A DNA stretch of 35,988 bases from Candidatus Gottesmanbacteria bacterium RIFCSPLOWO2_01_FULL_42_22 (GTDB taxonomy: Bacteria; Patescibacteriota; Microgenomatia; 2-02-FULL-39-11), in assembly GCA_001779315.1 (NCBI GenBank), contig MFJU01000041.1, positions 1 through 35,988 on the forward strand. The letters run 5' to 3'. The translations under genes and the position numbers were made by a program. Below, piece after piece: positions 518 through 9,102 of this stretch. Positions within the stretch are counted from its first letter, which is position 1. The number at the start of each line of letters is the position of its first letter. A model generated the notes under the pieces. The model ran no database searches. It was not told the DNA's origin and was given only the letters and a program-made list of their open reading frames with translations.

Positions 518-1252
518 ATGTTTAGAACCATCACTTATTCAGTCCTTTTAATTCCCTTCTACCTTATTTTCTATCAGGCAGGGATCCTGGCCCAGGAAAT
601 GAAATCGGAAAAATATACCATAGAGGGGAGCAATTTCAATATCTCTTCCGGTATTTCCGTCTCTGACAACTTCCGGCTTACTGATCTGGTCGGCAATGCC
701 CAGGCGCAAATTTTTACGGCCAAAGGTTTCTACCGGCAATCGGGCTTCAAAAATTCAGCCGCAGTATCAGCTTTTACATTTTCCATTTCTCCCCTTTCAC
801 TTAATTTTGATAAACCGACCCCGGGTAAACCGCAGGAAAAAACATTGCAATTTAATATATCAAACAGTAATTTAATAGGATTTAATATAACAGCTGAACA
901 GAACCAGCCGCTGATCACCTCGGGAGGCACCGAGATTCCTGATACTCTCTGCAATGGCGCATTCAATAAAATCTGCACCTCAAACCAAGCCTCTGCCTGG
1001 ACTATAAACCGCGCCTATGGTTTCGGCTATCGCATTAGCGGAGATTCAAAACCGGCTGATTTTAAGAAGTCCACCTATTACCGCCCACTGCCTTCCAGGT
1101 CAAAGAAAGAATCTCCTCAAATTGTGCTTTCCTCGGTTGATAGAAACGCTTCGGAGGGAGCGGAAATGATCTTTAAACTCAATTTCTCTCCGAAACAGCC
1201 TGCAGGCATCTATAACAATGTAGTACATTTCACGGCTATCCCGGGAATATAA
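518..1252 (+). CDS. secreted beta-rich surface protein of unknown family
   Basis: N-terminal signal-peptide-like stretch (SVLLIPFYLIFYQAGILAQ), then a beta-sandwich-like composition. Confidence 0.7.
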   Translation: MFRTITYSVLLIPFYLIFYQAGILAQEMKSEKYTIEGSNFNISSGISVSDNFRLTDLVGNAQAQIFTAKGFYRQSGFKNSAAVSAFTFSISPLSLNFDKPTPGKPQEKTLQFNISNSNLIGFNITAEQNQPLITSGGTEIPDTLCNGAFNKICTSNQASAWTINRAYGFGYRISGDSKPADFKKSTYYRPLPSRSKKESPQIVLSSVDRNASEGAEMIFKLNFSPKQPAGIYNNVVHFTAIPGI

Positions 1253-1254
1253 AC

Positions 1255-2148
1255 ATGGTAAAAATAAAGAACTATATACTTCTAATCGCCTTAGCATCAT
1301 TGTTCCAGCCGAAATTAGTTTCTGCTCAATCGCTGGCGCTTTCCGTATCCCCGCCGCTGGTTGAAATCATGATCCAACCGGGAAAAGAAACCAATCAAAC
1401 CGTAAGACTGACCAATTTGGGTGATGATACGTATCTTAAGGTTAACATCGCTGTTTATGAAAACGGACGGATAAGGGACGTTTCAGACAGTGACAGATTA
1501 CCCTGGTTGGAGTTTACTTCCGAAAAAATCGGGGACAAACCGTTTCTGGTCAGAAAGAATGAGGAAATCCCGGTCAATCTCCGCCTCCATCCCTCCTTAA
1601 ATTCGGAAACGAAGGACTATTACCGTGCTTTGACTTTTTCTACCATTGCCTATCCCCATGATCCGCAAACCCAAGTTAAAGTCAGCCAGACTATAGCTTC
1701 GATATTGCTCATCAGCGTCACTTCTTCCGGTCTTCCCAAAAAAGCGGAAATTGTTTCACGCCCTCCCCGCTTCATTGACTCGTTTGACAAACTGCCCTTA
1801 AACATCAAAGTCCGCAATACCGGCAGTACCTATTTCAGGCCAAACGGCACCGTCACTTTAAAGGGGTTCATCGGAAAAGCAGGATATCCTATCCTGCCTG
1901 CCGCCATATTAATTAATGAGCAAAAAGAGCTTCTGATCGAAAAAAATAGCCGTCAGGCTAGCTATTTGCGGGGATTTTTTATTGGACGATATCAGCTTGA
2001 GACCAGCTTTGTCATGGATGAAGGCTCCTTGAGAGTTTCCGGAAGTTCAACCTTCTATGCTTTTCCCTGGAAAATCAGCCTATTTCTGATAGCCTCCTTT
2101 TTGACATATCGCTTCCTTAGAGCCTATCGACAAAAGCGGGTTATGTGA
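1255..2148 (+). CDS. membrane-anchored surface protein, DUF916/Fn3-like
   Basis: Signal peptide, 'LSVSPPLVEIMIQPGKETNQTVRLTNLGD' motif, C-terminal TM and basic tail (LFLIASFLTYRFLRAYRQKR); 2 nt after the preceding CDS. Confidence 0.75.
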   Translation: MVKIKNYILLIALASLFQPKLVSAQSLALSVSPPLVEIMIQPGKETNQTVRLTNLGDDTYLKVNIAVYENGRIRDVSDSDRLPWLEFTSEKIGDKPFLVRKNEEIPVNLRLHPSLNSETKDYYRALTFSTIAYPHDPQTQVKVSQTIASILLISVTSSGLPKKAEIVSRPPRFIDSFDKLPLNIKVRNTGSTYFRPNGTVTLKGFIGKAGYPILPAAILINEQKELLIEKNSRQASYLRGFFIGRYQLETSFVMDEGSLRVSGSSTFYAFPWKISLFLIASFLTYRFLRAYRQKRVM

Positions 2149-2416: not shown

Positions 2417-2853
2417 GACTGACTCTCGATAAAAATTTTAAAAACGTATGGTTCTACTATCAGAGATAAGTAATAAAAATCTGATAATACATAATAGACT
2501 TATAGTATTGATATAAAGGACGCCAAAAAGGCTATTAAAATCATTTTAATAACAGAATATTAAAATTGCCTATAGTAATATTTAATTCTATCGAATATAT
2601 TCCCTGTTTAAAAGAACTTTTCTGAAAATCCGCTAAAAAAAATAATTTATGCCATTCTGCAGAAAATTTAAAACAAAGACTATATCTAAAGACATCATTA
2701 AGCGGTATAATTGATAAGCTATCAATTGATATATTTAGATATATTAAATGTAGCTAAAAAAGTATGCGGGAAATCGTGAAAATCAATCAGCAGATTCTTT
2801 AAGCGTAACTTGAAATACCTTCCTGAATACCCCTTTACTAGATCATTACTCTC

Positions 2854-2882
2854 TTGACAAGCTTATTAAGATAATGTTTACT
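2854..2882 (+). promoter_or_regulatory. sigma70-like promoter for the 1376-aa gene
   Basis: TTGACA (2854-2859), 17-nt spacer, TTTACT (2877-2882), 27 nt before the ATG. Confidence 0.5.
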
Positions 2883-2909: not shown

Positions 2910-5900
2910 ATGTCTAAAATCGAAGCTGAATTTAAAAAATACCTTAATTCCCTAGTTATTTCCCGCAAGATCAGAAGCCAGAACTTGCGTTTATTTCTCA
3001 ATTACCTCAGCTACCTAAAACTCTCAGGTATCGTCCATCCCGGAAAAGCAAAAACAGTGAATTTTCACAGGATCGATGAGTTTAAAAAGCTAATTGGCCG
3101 TAAGATTGTTAAGGAAGATGAGTATAACCAGTTCATCACCTATCTCACCGCTTTTATAGACAAATTTAATACTAATCATACCAATATAACAGATAGTAAG
3201 TCCCTCAAACAATATCAGGAATTGCTGGATGCTTATTTGCATTACCTCGAAAAGAAAAATTTTTCTCCGGCCACGGTCAAAAACTACAAGTCAGATTTAC
3301 AGCAGTTTTTAAAATATGCCGGAAATAAACTAACCGACCTTAATATATCAAAAGATATAATTGATGGCTTTATTAACTATCAGCAGGAGCTTGACAGCAG
3401 AAAAAGTACTTTGAGAAGGAAACTTTCGTCAATCAATTCATTTCGCAACTGGCTTCTGAAGAAGTCACCGATAAAAAAACTAACTCATAGGGCAGACGAA
3501 ATAAAACCTAAAGTAGATGCTCATGATACTTTAATTGAGTCATCCGGACAATCTTATTCAAATAATCAAAATCCTCCGGCTGTCCGTTTCCCGCAGAGTA
3601 TATCATGGTTTTTCACGCTCGCTCTAACCTCACTGTTATCACTATCAATAGGCATCGGAATATATCAGCAATTTTTTCTCCAGCCTCTAACTTCTTTAGC
3701 CTTACCGGGTCCGACAACCAAACCGTCCAGGATTATCAATTTTCAGGGAAGGTTAACAGATAATTCGGGAAATCCTATAGTAGAAAAGACGCAAACACGC
3801 TTCAGGATATGGAACCAGATTGCCGGAGGCAATACCTTATACGATTCAGGTTATTGTCAAGTGTCACCGGATCAAAACGGTATTTTTTATACACTCATTG
3901 GATCAACCTGCGGAATTGAAATCTCTTCATCCGTCTTTTCCGAAAATATTTCCGCTTATTTGGGAGTTTCAGCAGGCAGCGATGCGGAAATGGAACCGCG
4001 GCAACAAATAGCCTCCGTCGGCTACGCTTTAAATAGCGAGACACTCCAAGGACTCTCTCCTTTATCTCCGGCTTCAGGAAACTCCATCCCTTTTATCGAT
4101 CGCGACGGACAGCTCTTAATCAGTGCCTCCTCGCCGGTCGTTAAATCGGATTCAGGTTTATTTACCCTCGAGGGTACCAATCTGCTCTTATCGACCGGTA
4201 TTGGTTCAAATGGTTCTATTTCCCTCAAACCGGATCAGAATGGTACAGTCAATCTTGATTTTTCAGGTTTTATTCCGGCTTCAAGTTCAGCCTTTTTGAA
4301 TATTAAAGCACCCAATCTGATTTCAGGCTCACTCATTTCCGCTATCGGTTCCTCTTTGACAGCCGGTTACCGTCTTTTGGAATTGTCGTCCGGAAATCCT
4401 CTTCAAGTTAAATTTTCCGTAGATGCCCAAGGCAATACCAATATTTCAGGAGACTTAAAGGTGTCAGATGTTTTCGAAGCCAGCTCTTCCGCTGTCCTTA
4501 TCAATTCCCCTCTTACTGTAACAAATCTAATCAGTGACGGCGGCTTGGGGATTTTCGGCAGCAACGGCAATACCTTACCGGTTTCCTTTGATTTCACCAA
4601 AGACACGACTGTCGAATTTGATTTTAAAACCGGCACTTCCAAAATTGAAATAGCCGCCAATATTGACAGCAACAGCACGAAATACTACCGTTTTTCCTGG
4701 AATACGGACAAACAGATGGAAGTGGCCAAATGCATAAACGGAACCTGCACCTCCCTAGCTACCTCAACTTTAAACTGGACGAATGATACCTGGCATCACG
4801 GCTATATCAGATTCATCTCGGATTCCATCCGTTTTGACCTGGATAACAACAGCGGGCGGGTGAACACCAATACAACTTCCGACGTGCCGAAACTAACTTC
4901 TGCCTATATCCGCTTTGTCTCAGGCTTGACAGCCATCTCCAATCTGCGGATTTCACCAAACAGTAAAATTATTCTGACTGCCGGAGATACGGCTGTCGGA
5001 GGTAAAATTGAGGCCGCCGATAATATCATTTCATCCGGACAGCTGAAAACAGGCAGTTTTTCCTCCGCCCCTTCAAATGCCGGCAACGGCTCCCTCTATT
5101 TCAACTCTTCTGACAACAAACTCTATTACTGGAACGGCTCATCCTGGGTTTCTGTTTACGGCTCAGGCGATCTGATGGTTTCAGGAGATGTTTTTCTGAA
5201 TTCCGGCGTCTTTTATCCCTCTACCAATTCAACTCATGAAGACCAATCTACCTATTTTATCGTGGCAGATACGGCCGGAACAGGTTCAATTATGACTAAT
5301 GCCGGCAATTTTGCTTCAGGAGGTACGGATTTCGCCGAAGTCTTTGACAGCGATGGGGATTTAACGGTCGGTGATCTAGTCGAAATTGCCCAAGGATCAG
5401 ACTTGGAAAGCAATTTGCCTAAAGTTAAGCAATCCTCCTCATATCAAAGCCAGAAAATGATAGGTTTTGTTACAGATAGAGCTGGTTTCGTAGGAGGCAT
5501 GCAGACTGATATGGATAAAATTTCCGTGAAAACAATCGGCTTGGTTGGCCGTGTCCCGGCCAAAGTATCCTCAATCAACGGCCCGATTGCTGTTGGCGAT
5601 CCTTTGACTTCTTCCGCTATTCCGGGAAGAGCGGTCAAAGCTATAACAGCCGGCCCTGTGATTGCCCGCTCTTTAGAAAATTTTTCCCAGGGAGAAGGAA
5701 CAATCTTAGTCTTCGTCCAATACGGCTGGTTTGATCCTGGGAAGATAACGGAAGAGACAGATAGTAATAGTTTGATAGCACAATTCCTGGCACCTTTAAT
5801 TCAGGCTCTGTCAAAAGCCAAGTTGAATATTGAATATTTAATTGCCGGCAATATTGAAGCTGAAAGCCTGACTTCGCCGGTCATTATCGCTGAAGAAATT

Positions 5901-7040
5901 AAAGCCGGGGAAATAATAGCCGAAGAAGTAACAGCTGAAATCATAATCGCCGGGGATGTGGCAATCGCAGGCGATTCAACTGTTTCCGGCACCCTCTATG
6001 CTGACCGGATCAAGTCGCAAGACCTTGACAACTTAAGCAGTACTTTCGGAAAGTTGACCGATCGCCTTTCGGAAATGGAAAAAGTCCCGCCGGAAGCAAC
6101 GGCAGGAGCTGCCCCCGTTAATCAATTTGCCGATGAATTTGACTCGATTTTAAGCGAAACCGAGCAAAATACCTCAAAACTTTTATCCCTTTATGAAAAA
6201 GTCTCGGCCTTTATCGCCAGTTCCTCTGCCGAAATTGCCCAAGTCTCGATGCCCTCCGACAGACTTATCGGTATTAACGAAGAAATCCCGCTCTCCCAAC
6301 AGGCATTAACATCACTCAAGGTGACCGGTCCGGTTTCCCTGGCTGATACGGTTGTCGCAGGACAGTTGGTGGTTGACGGAAATTTATCCCTGTCTCACAG
6401 CCAGCTTGCTTCAATCGGCGATTACCTTTATCTGACATCCCAAAAAGCCATCGATCTGATGGGCGGCAAGCTAATTGTCGATAATGAGGGCAATTTGACA
6501 GTCCACGGCCAAATTTATGCGGAAAAAGGCATTATTACACCGCAGATAACCGCACAAACAGATAATCTCTCAATCAAATTAGGTCAAAATCCACTTTCAA
6601 GCGACAGTGCACGCATTGGAGGAGCAGGTACTTTGACTGTTTTGGGCAATGCTTCAATTTCGGGGAGGCTCTCCGCAGCCAAAATTGAATTAGACTCATC
6701 TGACAAGGATACTCCGGACCGCTTAAGCGCATCGGAAAATTTTGTGCAAAACGGCATTAATGCCCCGGCCTTATTTTCAAAAGGGTCAGTCGGTCGAGCC
6801 TTGATTATTGCCAATTACAGGGAAATGATTATCTTTAATGAGAACATTAATGAAAATACCCTTGTTTACCTGACACCTACCTCCTCGGCAAACGGACGCA
6901 GCCTTTATGTTTCCGGCCGTGAAATTTGTCCCCCGACCAGTAGCGATCCGAATTCGGCCAAATGCAAAAAATATTTCAAAGTTGCCCTGGACCAGGCAAT
7001 AGCGGAAGACCTTTCTTTCAATTGGTGGCTGGTTAATTAA
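2910..7040 (+). CDS. chimeric surface protein: N-terminal tyrosine-recombinase SAM-like (core-binding) domain, TM helix, long adhesin/tail-fibre-like ectodomain
   Basis: 'YLHYLEKKNFSPATVKNYKSDLQQFLKYAG...STLRRKLSSINSFRNWLLKK' is XerC/D N-domain-like. TM 'SWFFTLALTSLLSLSIGIGIY'. 'INFQGRLTDNSGNPI', a LamG-like stretch, and 'GGTDFAEVFDSDGDLTVGDLVEIAQGS' (tail-fibre/peptidase-G2-like). No recombinase catalytic domain. Confidence 0.85.
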   Translation: MSKIEAEFKKYLNSLVISRKIRSQNLRLFLNYLSYLKLSGIVHPGKAKTVNFHRIDEFKKLIGRKIVKEDEYNQFITYLTAFIDKFNTNHTNITDSKSLKQYQELLDAYLHYLEKKNFSPATVKNYKSDLQQFLKYAGNKLTDLNISKDIIDGFINYQQELDSRKSTLRRKLSSINSFRNWLLKKSPIKKLTHRADEIKPKVDAHDTLIESSGQSYSNNQNPPAVRFPQSISWFFTLALTSLLSLSIGIGIYQQFFLQPLTSLALPGPTTKPSRIINFQGRLTDNSGNPIVEKTQTRFRIWNQIAGGNTLYDSGYCQVSPDQNGIFYTLIGSTCGIEISSSVFSENISAYLGVSAGSDAEMEPRQQIASVGYALNSETLQGLSPLSPASGNSIPFIDRDGQLLISASSPVVKSDSGLFTLEGTNLLLSTGIGSNGSISLKPDQNGTVNLDFSGFIPASSSAFLNIKAPNLISGSLISAIGSSLTAGYRLLELSSGNPLQVKFSVDAQGNTNISGDLKVSDVFEASSSAVLINSPLTVTNLISDGGLGIFGSNGNTLPVSFDFTKDTTVEFDFKTGTSKIEIAANIDSNSTKYYRFSWNTDKQMEVAKCINGTCTSLATSTLNWTNDTWHHGYIRFISDSIRFDLDNNSGRVNTNTTSDVPKLTSAYIRFVSGLTAISNLRISPNSKIILTAGDTAVGGKIEAADNIISSGQLKTGSFSSAPSNAGNGSLYFNSSDNKLYYWNGSSWVSVYGSGDLMVSGDVFLNSGVFYPSTNSTHEDQSTYFIVADTAGTGSIMTNAGNFASGGTDFAEVFDSDGDLTVGDLVEIAQGSDLESNLPKVKQSSSYQSQKMIGFVTDRAGFVGGMQTDMDKISVKTIGLVGRVPAKVSSINGPIAVGDPLTSSAIPGRAVKAITAGPVIARSLENFSQGEGTILVFVQYGWFDPGKITEETDSNSLIAQFLAPLIQALSKAKLNIEYLIAGNIEAESLTSPVIIAEEIKAGEIIAEEVTAEIIIAGDVAIAGDSTVSGTLYADRIKSQDLDNLSSTFGKLTDRLSEMEKVPPEATAGAAPVNQFADEFDSILSETEQNTSKLLSLYEKVSAFIASSSAEIAQVSMPSDRLIGINEEIPLSQQALTSLKVTGPVSLADTVVAGQLVVDGNLSLSHSQLASIGDYLYLTSQKAIDLMGGKLIVDNEGNLTVHGQIYAEKGIITPQITAQTDNLSIKLGQNPLSSDSARIGGAGTLTVLGNASISGRLSAAKIELDSSDKDTPDRLSASENFVQNGINAPALFSKGSVGRALIIANYREMIIFNENINENTLVYLTPTSSANGRSLYVSGREICPPTSSDPNSAKCKKYFKVALDQAIAEDLSFNWWLVN

Positions 7041-7066: not shown

Positions 7067-7378
7067 ATGAAAAATAACAGATATTCCACTCCGCTTGAAC
7101 TTCTTACTTTATCAGCTGTTTTCTTGTCTATTACCTTTGCTCTTTACTATTCGTTTTCATGGCAAAGAAAACACTGGACGCAGCAGGAGACAACCCAAAC
7201 TCAAAATGTGCTGGGAGAAACGGCCATAGCACAAAAAGACTCCTCAATTTGCGAAAAAAACAGGTGCGGTTTTTGCCGGGAATGCGGCGAAACTGCAGGT
7301 TTAACCTGCGGTTATCTGTCCCGCTGCCGACTAATTGAAAAAAAATGGCAGTGCCGCTTTGATCTTTCCTGTTTATGA
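7067..7378 (+). CDS. small membrane-anchored Cys-rich protein
   Basis: N-terminal TM, then 8 Cys in the C-terminal ~43 aa (CEKNRCGFCRECGETAGLTCGYLSRCRLIEKKWQCRFDLSC); overlaps the next start by 4 nt. Confidence 0.7.
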   Translation: MKNNRYSTPLELLTLSAVFLSITFALYYSFSWQRKHWTQQETTQTQNVLGETAIAQKDSSICEKNRCGFCRECGETAGLTCGYLSRCRLIEKKWQCRFDLSCL

Positions 7379-9102
7379 CTGATTTGATAATTTTGATATT
7401 TGCTTTTATCTATCCCCTTTTCCATTCTTTTTTTACTTATGACCCGACTGAAGTGGCCAAAATGACCTTGCTGGGAATAATTGTCCCCTTATTGTTATTT
7501 TTATCCTCAATCCGTTTATGGCGAAAAAGGGAATTGCCCATACCGCGAAATCCATATCTTCCGGTTTTGCTTTTACTGATAGGCGCATTTACCGTCTCCG
7601 GACTGACATCCGCCGCCAATATAGTCATCCCTTTAACCACTCCGTCATCTCTGGGCAGTCTCTGGCTTCTTTTTGGCCTTTTTCTTCTTCTTTCTTGCCT
7701 GGATGGACGGATGAAGCGGATTTATCTTGATTTAACCATAGCCGGATCAGCTTTAATCAGTCTTGCCGTTATTTTTATATATTTGGGGATTTTACCCCAA
7801 ACGGTGATTTTACCCTCCGGCAGTCTTTTAACAACATGTCTTTACTTAACAGTCATATCTGCCTACCTCCTGGCTAAATTCATTACTGATATTAAATATG
7901 GCAAAAACCCTCTTTATATTATGGCACTATTACTCACTCTCTCTGCAGGGATAACACTGGCTTATCATTTAAACACAGACAAAAAAGCTTTGCTTCTGCC
8001 TCACTCTCAAGCTGTTTGGGTCTTTTCAAAAATCGCCGGCAATCCCAAAGATCTTCTCTTGGGAGTAGGGCCGACACAATTTATCAGCGCTTTCAGCAAA
8101 TTTAAAGAGGCTTCTATCAACAAGACTCCTCTTTGGAATATCACCTTCAGCACTTCCTCCTCTTTTTTCCTGAATCTTCTAACCGAGGGAGGCATTTTTA
8201 GCGGTTTGTTATATTTATGGCTATTTTTTATCACTCTTAAATACTTACGCCGTAATCTGCCTATTCTCTTTTCCCTGGCGGTTATCTTTATCCTGCAAAT
8301 GATTTTTCCCTCCAATATGGCACTTCTTTACCTTATGTTTTTACTGATGGCTTTTAGCGTGTCCCCCGATTCCCGCAACAATTGGCGTCTTCCCCGTTTT
8401 TATACTTTTAGCCTGACGATGATTTCTTTTGTGTTCTTTTTAGGAATCGGTTACCTGTCAATCAGGAATTTTCTGGCTGAATCGTTTTATAAAAGTTCCT
8501 ATGATTCCCTCTCGGAAAAAAACGGCAACGAAGTTTATAACATGCAAAGAAGCGCGGTGATTTTAAACCCTCATTCGGATAAATACCATCTTGCCCTTTC
8601 CCAAACTTCCCTGGCTTTGGCTGATTCCTTCGCTAGAATAGAAAACCCCTCAAATGAGGAAAAACAGAAAGTGACTAAACTGGCCCAGCAATCGATAGAA
8701 GAAGCTCAAAGGGCAGTTTCAGCAAACAAACAGAATTCTTTAGTTTGGGATAACTTAAGTAAAATCTATGGGGCATTGCAGAAATTTGCTATAGGATCTG
8801 ACAATTGGGCAATTGAGGCAGCCCGCCAAAAAATCATGCTGGACCCGGCTAATCCCAACAGTTACTTAAGTTTGGGCACCTTGTATTTTTCCCAGGAAAA
8901 ATTTGCGGAAGCGGAAAATAATTTCCGTGAGGCTATCAACCTAAAAGAAGACCTTCTTTCCGCCCACTTCAATTTAGCCTTATCTTTGAAATCCCAGGGA
9001 AGGTCGCAAGAAGCCAAAAAGGAATTTGAAACAACTCTCAATCAGCTTCCGGCCGCCTCCCCCGATCTTCCCCGCCTGCACCAGGAACTGGAAAGTCTTT
9101 GA
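7375..9102 (+). CDS. O-antigen ligase/polymerase-like polytopic membrane protein with C-terminal TPR repeats
   Basis: About 10 hydrophobic segments, then TPR-like 'PNSYLSLGTLYFSQEKFAEAENNFREAINLKEDLLSAHFNLALSLKSQGRSQEA'. Confidence 0.75.
   Translation: MTDLIILIFAFIYPLFHSFFTYDPTEVAKMTLLGIIVPLLLFLSSIRLWRKRELPIPRNPYLPVLLLLIGAFTVSGLTSAANIVIPLTTPSSLGSLWLLFGLFLLLSCLDGRMKRIYLDLTIAGSALISLAVIFIYLGILPQTVILPSGSLLTTCLYLTVISAYLLAKFITDIKYGKNPLYIMALLLTLSAGITLAYHLNTDKKALLLPHSQAVWVFSKIAGNPKDLLLGVGPTQFISAFSKFKEASINKTPLWNITFSTSSSFFLNLLTEGGIFSGLLYLWLFFITLKYLRRNLPILFSLAVIFILQMIFPSNMALLYLMFLLMAFSVSPDSRNNWRLPRFYTFSLTMISFVFFLGIGYLSIRNFLAESFYKSSYDSLSEKNGNEVYNMQRSAVILNPHSDKYHLALSQTSLALADSFARIENPSNEEKQKVTKLAQQSIEEAQRAVSANKQNSLVWDNLSKIYGALQKFAIGSDNWAIEAARQKIMLDPANPNSYLSLGTLYFSQEKFAEAENNFREAINLKEDLLSAHFNLALSLKSQGRSQEAKKEFETTLNQLPAASPDLPRLHQELESL

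Follow-up and report, generated by a model that had tools for sequence, protein, structure and literature searches.

A Microgenomates surface-fibre protein with recombinase-type core-binding domains and candidate operator repeats upstream of its gene

Why would a membrane-anchored surface fibre begin with the core-binding (CB) domain of a recombinase? The question is raised by one gene in a stretch of 35,988 nucleotides (hereafter the window; contig MFJU01000041.1) of Candidatus Gottesmanbacteria bacterium RIFCSPLOWO2_01_FULL_42_22. The original prediction for this gene, made from the sequence alone, described a XerC/XerD-type CB domain at residues ~100-190, a possible degenerate copy of it at residues 1-95, no catalytic domain, and a transmembrane (TM) helix near residue 232 followed by a beta-rich, tail-fibre-like surface part, and it offered three roles for the N-terminal module: linking DNA to the membrane, sensing DNA, or serving as a protein-interaction module. 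For Patescibacteria, which are believed to spend their lives in attachment to other microbes, the way in which contact is sensed is an open question. The reading that we favor, to which we give a probability of about 0.5, is that the protein is a membrane-tethered DNA-binding fibre that binds iterons in its own regulatory region and couples the cell surface to gene control or to tethering of the locus.

The assignment of the N-terminal region was borne out by sequence profiles and by structural comparison. The Pfam model Phage_int_SAM_1 (PF02899) matched residues 106-184 with 48.1 bits against a cut-off of 22.3 (E = 1.1e-10 for the whole protein and 1.4e-12 for residues 1-230), and the NCBIfam XerC/XerD models matched only at residues 108-190, with all Xer-model matches confined to residues 93-200. 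An AlphaFold2 (AF2) model built on 27 natural homologues (predicted local distance difference test (pLDDT) score, 80.5), consisted of two successive four-helix bundles, a disordered linker and one long hydrophobic helix at residues 229-257. The second bundle comprised helices at residues 96-115, 120-140, 148-160 and 165-185, and the first, at residues 3-90, confirmed the suspected degenerate copy. When the bundles were compared with the PDB using Foldseek, VchIntIA (2a3v) and XerA (5hxy) were found at a probability of 0.99-1.00, with a root-mean-square deviation of ~2 Å over 81-83 columns for most chains, and Cre and lambda Int came next in the list; the accompanying E-values were weak (0.05-3) because the bundle is small and helical. 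A profile made from the alignment of CB domains (A2) matched the PDB sequences of XerA (5hxy, 3e-5), a XerC-like protein (4a8e, 2e-5) and XerD (1a0p, 2e-3), and residues T122, Y126, D129 and R170 of the second bundle were invariant in that alignment. The catalytic domain is absent, as predicted: Pfam gave no Phage_integrase match anywhere in the 1376 residues of the window protein, and nothing integrase-like followed the CB bundles. In a tree of CB domains the second copy of the window protein lay nearest other second copies; as a pointer to origin the tree was otherwise uninformative, its sequences being short (85 residues) and its clades mixed. PDB 9i5v chain 14, a chain of 401 residues named RaiA, matched the integrase CB domain at residues 6-114; it was dropped as a candidate non-recombinase user of the domain, the chain probably being a XerC-RaiA fusion, if the name is not simply a slip.

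With the Xer recombinases (XerC/XerD/XerA; PF02899) the module shares the four-helix CB fold, the TxxxY..D motif of helix B, the RRLS motif of helix D and the DNA-facing positions. Unlike them, the window protein has no catalytic domain and no Arg...His-x-x-Arg...Tyr active site, a TM helix and a giant ectodomain standing in their place, and in the fibre family the CB domains frequently come in tandem or are distributed over a pair of genes. Two sequential CB domains are also found in RitA recombinases (PMC8138268). The tandem arrangement is common to RitA and the window protein, but RitA is catalytic, soluble and a component of transposable elements, whereas the two CB bundles of the window protein are accompanied by no catalytic domain.

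The same architecture was present in 8 of the 15 genomes of the family to which the window genome belongs, the window genome included, and the proteins of the other seven were 38-44% identical to that of the window over residues 2-381. For a search of named genomes across the class, whose members are ultra-small bacteria, we used a query consisting of the TM helix and the membrane-proximal ectodomain only, with the CB region left out, and retrieved 80 Microgenomates loci, mostly labelled Gottesmanbacteria, Roizmanbacteria, Woesebacteria, Collierbacteria or Shapirobacteria. Whole or half CB domains were found on 78 of these 80 fibres, and the remaining two have a CB gene directly upstream. A second set of loci gave a CB domain in every case (20/20, with 4-5 loci shared with the first set). 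Outside the class, homologous ectodomains follow a short signal-like N-terminus that lacks the CB domain, with one exception. We take the CB module to be a class-specific addition to a surface fibre, because the 80 loci of the class have it while fibres outside the class, bar one, do not. The original prediction had asked for the architecture in other genomes of the candidate phyla radiation (CPR), and its recurrence there, within the family and across the class, ruled out a misassembly of two separate genes as well as a chance fusion. We found no earlier description of CB-fibre proteins in the open-licence literature.

The genome of the window encodes a second protein of this kind (contig C3, L009 2-2602, - strand), in which a pair of CB domains and a TM helix are combined with a long, collagen-like GSTG stalk; this ORF (open reading frame) and another on contig C38 (L010 1-2802, + strand) are probably the two ends of one paralogue broken at a repeat. 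One CB-fibre ORF (L052, G246:C14 near 669268) is listed at 24,949 residues and, if real, would encode one of the largest bacterial proteins.

Thirty of the 80 fibres start with the second half of a CB domain only (profile positions 45-89, corresponding to helices 3-4). The gene immediately upstream of 27 of these 30 half-CB fibres encodes a whole CB domain, behind which a first half (positions 2 to ~40, helices 1-2) is recognisable in most of them, and no such complementary gene was found beside any of the 47 whole-CB fibres (Fisher p = 9e-18). Pfam independently covered only positions 36-83 in the half-domains, and on the AF2 model the split point maps to the loop connecting helices 2 and 3. 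The majority of half-domain ORFs possess a separate ATG a few codons ahead of the half-domain, and the distance between the two genes ranges from an overlap (-53) to 697 nt; at two loci (L082 and L085) ~6.7 kb separates the split genes, and a further large gene lies in the interval. The natural reading of this arrangement is that the two polypeptides together make one CB fold, a reassembly that would take place between separately translated chains. The window protein is the fused form of the split pair, that is, a "Rosetta" relative. Four loci also encode large secreted proteins of a second family without a CB domain (L082 666-7397, L085 1664-7417, L142 1-5031 and L153 1868-5989), and in two of the four this gene lies between the two split genes.

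Does the module retain the residues with which a recombinase reads DNA? In Cre, the base-contacting positions are Lys43 and Met44 in helix B and Gln90 in helix D (PMC6486577, PMC7438526). With Cre numbering transferred through our own alignment of the helix B and helix D motifs, nearly every fibre CB domain has K/R, N and R at the equivalents of positions 43, 44 and 90; in the second copy of the window protein these residues are K124, N125 and R170. The signature [TS]x[KR]N[YF]xxD was found in 69 of the 80 loci, and the Xer proteins of these genomes often vary more at the DNA-facing positions than the fibre CB domains do. We infer that the CB module binds DNA.

Candidate sites for such binding lie upstream of the genes themselves. 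The intergenic region before the fibre or partner gene has a median length of 523 bp, which is long for such compact genomes, and it contains a conserved sigma-70-type promoter, CCTCTTGACA. Pairs of ATCA spaced by 10 bp (ATCA-N6-ATCA) occurred 38 times in these regions, compared with 3.5 times in shuffled sequences and 1-8 times at every other spacing. When all pairs of 4-mer and distance were ranked, ATCA at 10 bp came first and CCGC at 10 bp second, and the second set of loci showed 12 ATCA pairs at 10 bp versus ~1 at other spacings. No 10-bp peak appeared in 400 kb of genome background, and no 10-bp iterons were found in the upstream regions of CB-less fibres. Iterons were also present in loci without an adjacent PaaX-like regulator gene (for example L075, L076, L117, L130, L136 and L142). 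These 10-bp repeats are candidate binding sites of the CB module.

A change in the module is accompanied by a change in the repeat. Seven loci (L081, L086, L099, L101, L108, L109 and L129) encode Phe or Tyr, and not the usual Asn, at the Cre-44 position (helix B) of the (first) CB domain. All seven have CCGC at 10-bp spacing and none has ATCA at that spacing, as compared with 6 of 70 and 33 of 70, respectively, for the other loci; CCGCA takes the place of ATCA as the 10-bp repeat in the Phe/Tyr loci. The pairing of residue and box is suggestive of specific recognition.

Beyond the linker, the predicted TM helix near residue 232 corresponded to the long helix at residues 229-257 of the AF2 model, and the large ectodomain that follows is beta-rich, as anticipated. 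The conserved beta-sandwich with which it opens (residues 270-381) has a mean column identity of 43% over 64 loci. Foldseek searches with the ectodomain returned only loose, generic immunoglobulin/transthyretin-like matches, none at E < 1e-3. The description as tail-fibre-like stands only loosely: neither Peptidase_S74 nor tail-fibre profiles were found in the window protein with Pfam or PHROG, and PHROG gave only weak matches of unknown function at residues 707-750, but a related fibre-like ORF of locus L115 has Peptidase_S74 and the collagen-like stalk of the paralogue in the window genome (L009 2-2602) matches phage tail fibres. The signal-peptide fibres of other Patescibacteria share the INYQGKL membrane-proximal ectodomain and are likewise very long and repetitive, without the CB module and without 10-bp iterons upstream. 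An N-terminus in the cytoplasm and an ectodomain outside is the probable topology, because the homologous ectodomains in other classes follow ordinary signal-like N-termini. Just after the TM helix an alanine (window residue 264; A1 column of residue 48) was invariant in 30 of 30 fibres and was usually followed by Y/F-P; it is suggestive of a signal-peptidase cleavage site, which could release the fibre from the CB module.

The gene lies within a conserved neighbourhood (Table 1), in which a set of exported proteins is encoded upstream of the fibre. Homologues of the product of window positions 518-1252 matched PamT at full length with 1e-10 to 1e-11 and also matched the Pam pilin model NF058581, in both cases below the curated cut-offs. 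A PamT match lay within 15 kb of the fibre gene in 26 of the 31 genomes that have both on one contig. On these sub-threshold matches the neighbourhood may be that of a CPR-type Pam pilus; the CB-fibre itself is matched by none of the Pam models. Of 40 genomes that carry the competence channel gene comEC and the fibre gene on a single contig, 37 have them within 25 kb of each other (median, 10.8 kb), and ComEA, ComEC and metallo-beta-lactamase genes were present, in more than one arrangement, in ~20 of the retrieved loci. One or more of comEA, comEC and the metallo-beta-lactamase gene adjoin the fibre locus in L087, L090-L092, L095, L096, L098, L106, L107, L110, L116, L125, L126, L128, L132 and L150, and over the class as a whole the linkage is strong. 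A divergent gene adjoins the upstream region of the fibre in many loci. Two further observations concern four-helix-bundle proteins: an ORF of locus L113 (12108-13298) combines an S23/Avd-like segment with one resembling a type IV pseudopilin, and S23-like ORFs also occur near the fibre in L083, L090, L094 and L141.

Table 1. Features of the window around the CB-fibre gene.
Feature	Position	Strand	Evidence and remarks
PamT / Pam-pilin-like exported protein, conserved neighbour	518..1252	+	NCBIfam NF058579, E = 2.3e-7, 30.5 bits against a curated cut-off of 240 for window 518-1249
Exported protein with signal-like N-terminus and C-terminal TM helix, beta-rich	1255..2148	+	conserved gene cluster in 68 loci; no Pfam family
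Degenerate 10-bp direct repeat ATATATCTAAATATATCA	2727..2744	-	166-183 nt before the start codon; found in the window
CTAGATCATTACTCTCTTGACA, ATCA box adjoining the conserved -35 element	2838..2859	+	CTCTTGACA context in relatives
CB-CB-TM-fibre protein	2910..7040	+	1376 aa, ATG start, single ORF; family members found in relatives
First core-binding (SAM-like) bundle, degenerate	2916..3179	+	residues 3-90; AF2 helices 3-14, 19-38, 55-62, 69-90
Second core-binding bundle, canonical signature TVKNYKSD + R170	3195..3464	+	residues 96-185; Pfam, AF2, alignment
Loop joining helices 2 and 3 in the second bundle	3330..3350	+	residues 141-147; half-domain profile boundary 45-47 mapped on AF2 helices
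Low-confidence, probably disordered cytoplasmic linker	3474..3587	+	residues 189-226; pLDDT <50 for most
Single TM helix	3594..3680	+	residues 229-257; AF2 helix, hydrophobic segment kept across the family
Membrane-proximal beta-sandwich (INFQGRLTD...ETLQG)	3717..4052	+	residues 270-381; AF2 strands, family conservation
Possible concanavalin-A/laminin-G-like domain, weak	4581..4880	+	Pfam PF13385, E = 0.019, under the cut-off
Multi-TM protein, TPR repeats at the C-terminus; conserved neighbour on the downstream side	7375..9102	+	Pfam TPR; cluster "TPRlig"

How might these parts work together? We propose that the N-terminus, with one or two Xer-type CB domains and no catalytic domain, would lie in the cytoplasm and be joined through the TM helix to the large fibre outside. 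At split loci, a small cytoplasmic protein consisting of a whole CB domain and helices 1-2 would dock on helices 3-4 of the fibre and so complete the second CB domain. The module would then bind the tandem boxes, ATCA or CCGCA at an interval of one helical turn, before its own gene, beside the sigma-70-type promoter. Most likely, transcription of the fibre's own Pam-pilus-like locus would be under the control of the fibre, of its assembly or of its engagement at the surface; through the same contact between CB domain and box, this chromosomal locus would be anchored at the envelope as well, and regulation and simple tethering are inseparable on present evidence. ToxR and CadC, which are membrane one-component regulators, offer a precedent, having a cytoplasmic N-terminal DNA-binding domain, one TM helix and an extracytoplasmic domain. 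The fibre protein has the same domain order and a predicted operator near its own locus, but its N-terminal domain is an integrase CB bundle and not an OmpR-type winged helix, and its outer part is a fibre whose length runs from several hundred to several thousand residues, where ToxR and CadC have a small sensor. A more specific form of the proposal, in which the partner protein acts as part of a fibre switch by completing the CB fold, so that the iterons at the operon are bound and assembly or host contact is read as operator occupancy, is advanced only tentatively. Among the roles originally offered, a link between DNA and membrane gains support from the conserved DNA-facing residues and the upstream 10-bp iterons, and the split second CB domain speaks for a protein-interaction role; nothing specific was found in favor of DNA sensing.

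Several observations weigh against the reading that we favor. The exact ATCA-N6-ATCA pair was found in 33 of 78 loci, under half, and the upstream region in the window has only a degenerate repeat pair; no ATCA-N6-ATCA was found on contig C3, which carries the second paralogue of this genome. Paired boxes also precede fibres with a single CB domain. Six other loci combine CCGC boxes with the usual Asn, and the Phe/Tyr loci probably form one Woesebacteria-like clade and so may reflect one historical event. A PaaX-like winged helix-turn-helix regulator, which could be the real box binder, is encoded near the fibre in 33 loci. The signature T-x-K/R-N-Y-x-x-D is lost in the first bundle of the window protein and is also absent from the same copy in its f1 homologues. 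Finally, the expected positive-inside charge bias across the TM helix is weak (48 of 80 loci). One explanation for some of these results is that the CB domains have lost DNA binding and form a cytoplasmic docking module, by which the fibre is anchored or linked with a partner in the cytosol, the iterons belonging to an unrelated regulator. The split domain, which implies docking of two chains, the first copies without the signature, the degenerate half-domain of the upstream gene in many Roizmanbacteria and the PaaX-like gene all fit this account. However, the DNA-facing K/R-N and R are among the best conserved residues of the module, the iterons occur without an adjacent PaaX-like gene and are missing before CB-less fibres, and box and residue change together in one clade, so that we consider docking alone less likely. 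We regard it as less likely still that the module tethers DNA with no regulatory role, either as a chromosome anchor at the envelope or in the handling of DNA that enters through ComEC. The proximity of comEC and its companions speaks for this possibility, but gene order in small genomes may simply be inherited, with no functional meaning, ComEC imports single strands while CB domains bind duplex DNA, and boxes at the promoter region of the locus itself suggest a specific site rather than general DNA handling.

Two further accounts would remove the phenomenon rather than reinterpret it, and both have very little probability. The two genes of a split locus might yield one polypeptide by recoding or intron removal, leaving no split domain, and the two ORFs do abut or overlap in several loci (-53 to +19 nt); we rejected this account on the separate start codons of most half-domain ORFs, the longer gaps and the two loci with distant genes. 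Nor is it credible that the N-terminal part is a functionless recombinase remnant fused by accident, or an assembly artefact. The degenerate first copy of the window family and the missing catalytic domain would be expected of a remnant, but this account is refuted because the architecture is conserved, with CB domains at all 80 loci, four invariant residues in the second bundle and complementary halves retained on both split genes.

If membrane-tethered DNA binding by the fibre is correct, Microgenomates would possess a class-wide family of fibres with a built-in DNA-binding end and a candidate operator, and signalling from the surface to the genes of these uncultured bacteria would be testable in vitro. 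In this family, moreover, a recombinase core-binding domain would have been put to new use in the absence of catalysis, and the family would provide a natural split-domain pair with fused "Rosetta" relatives.

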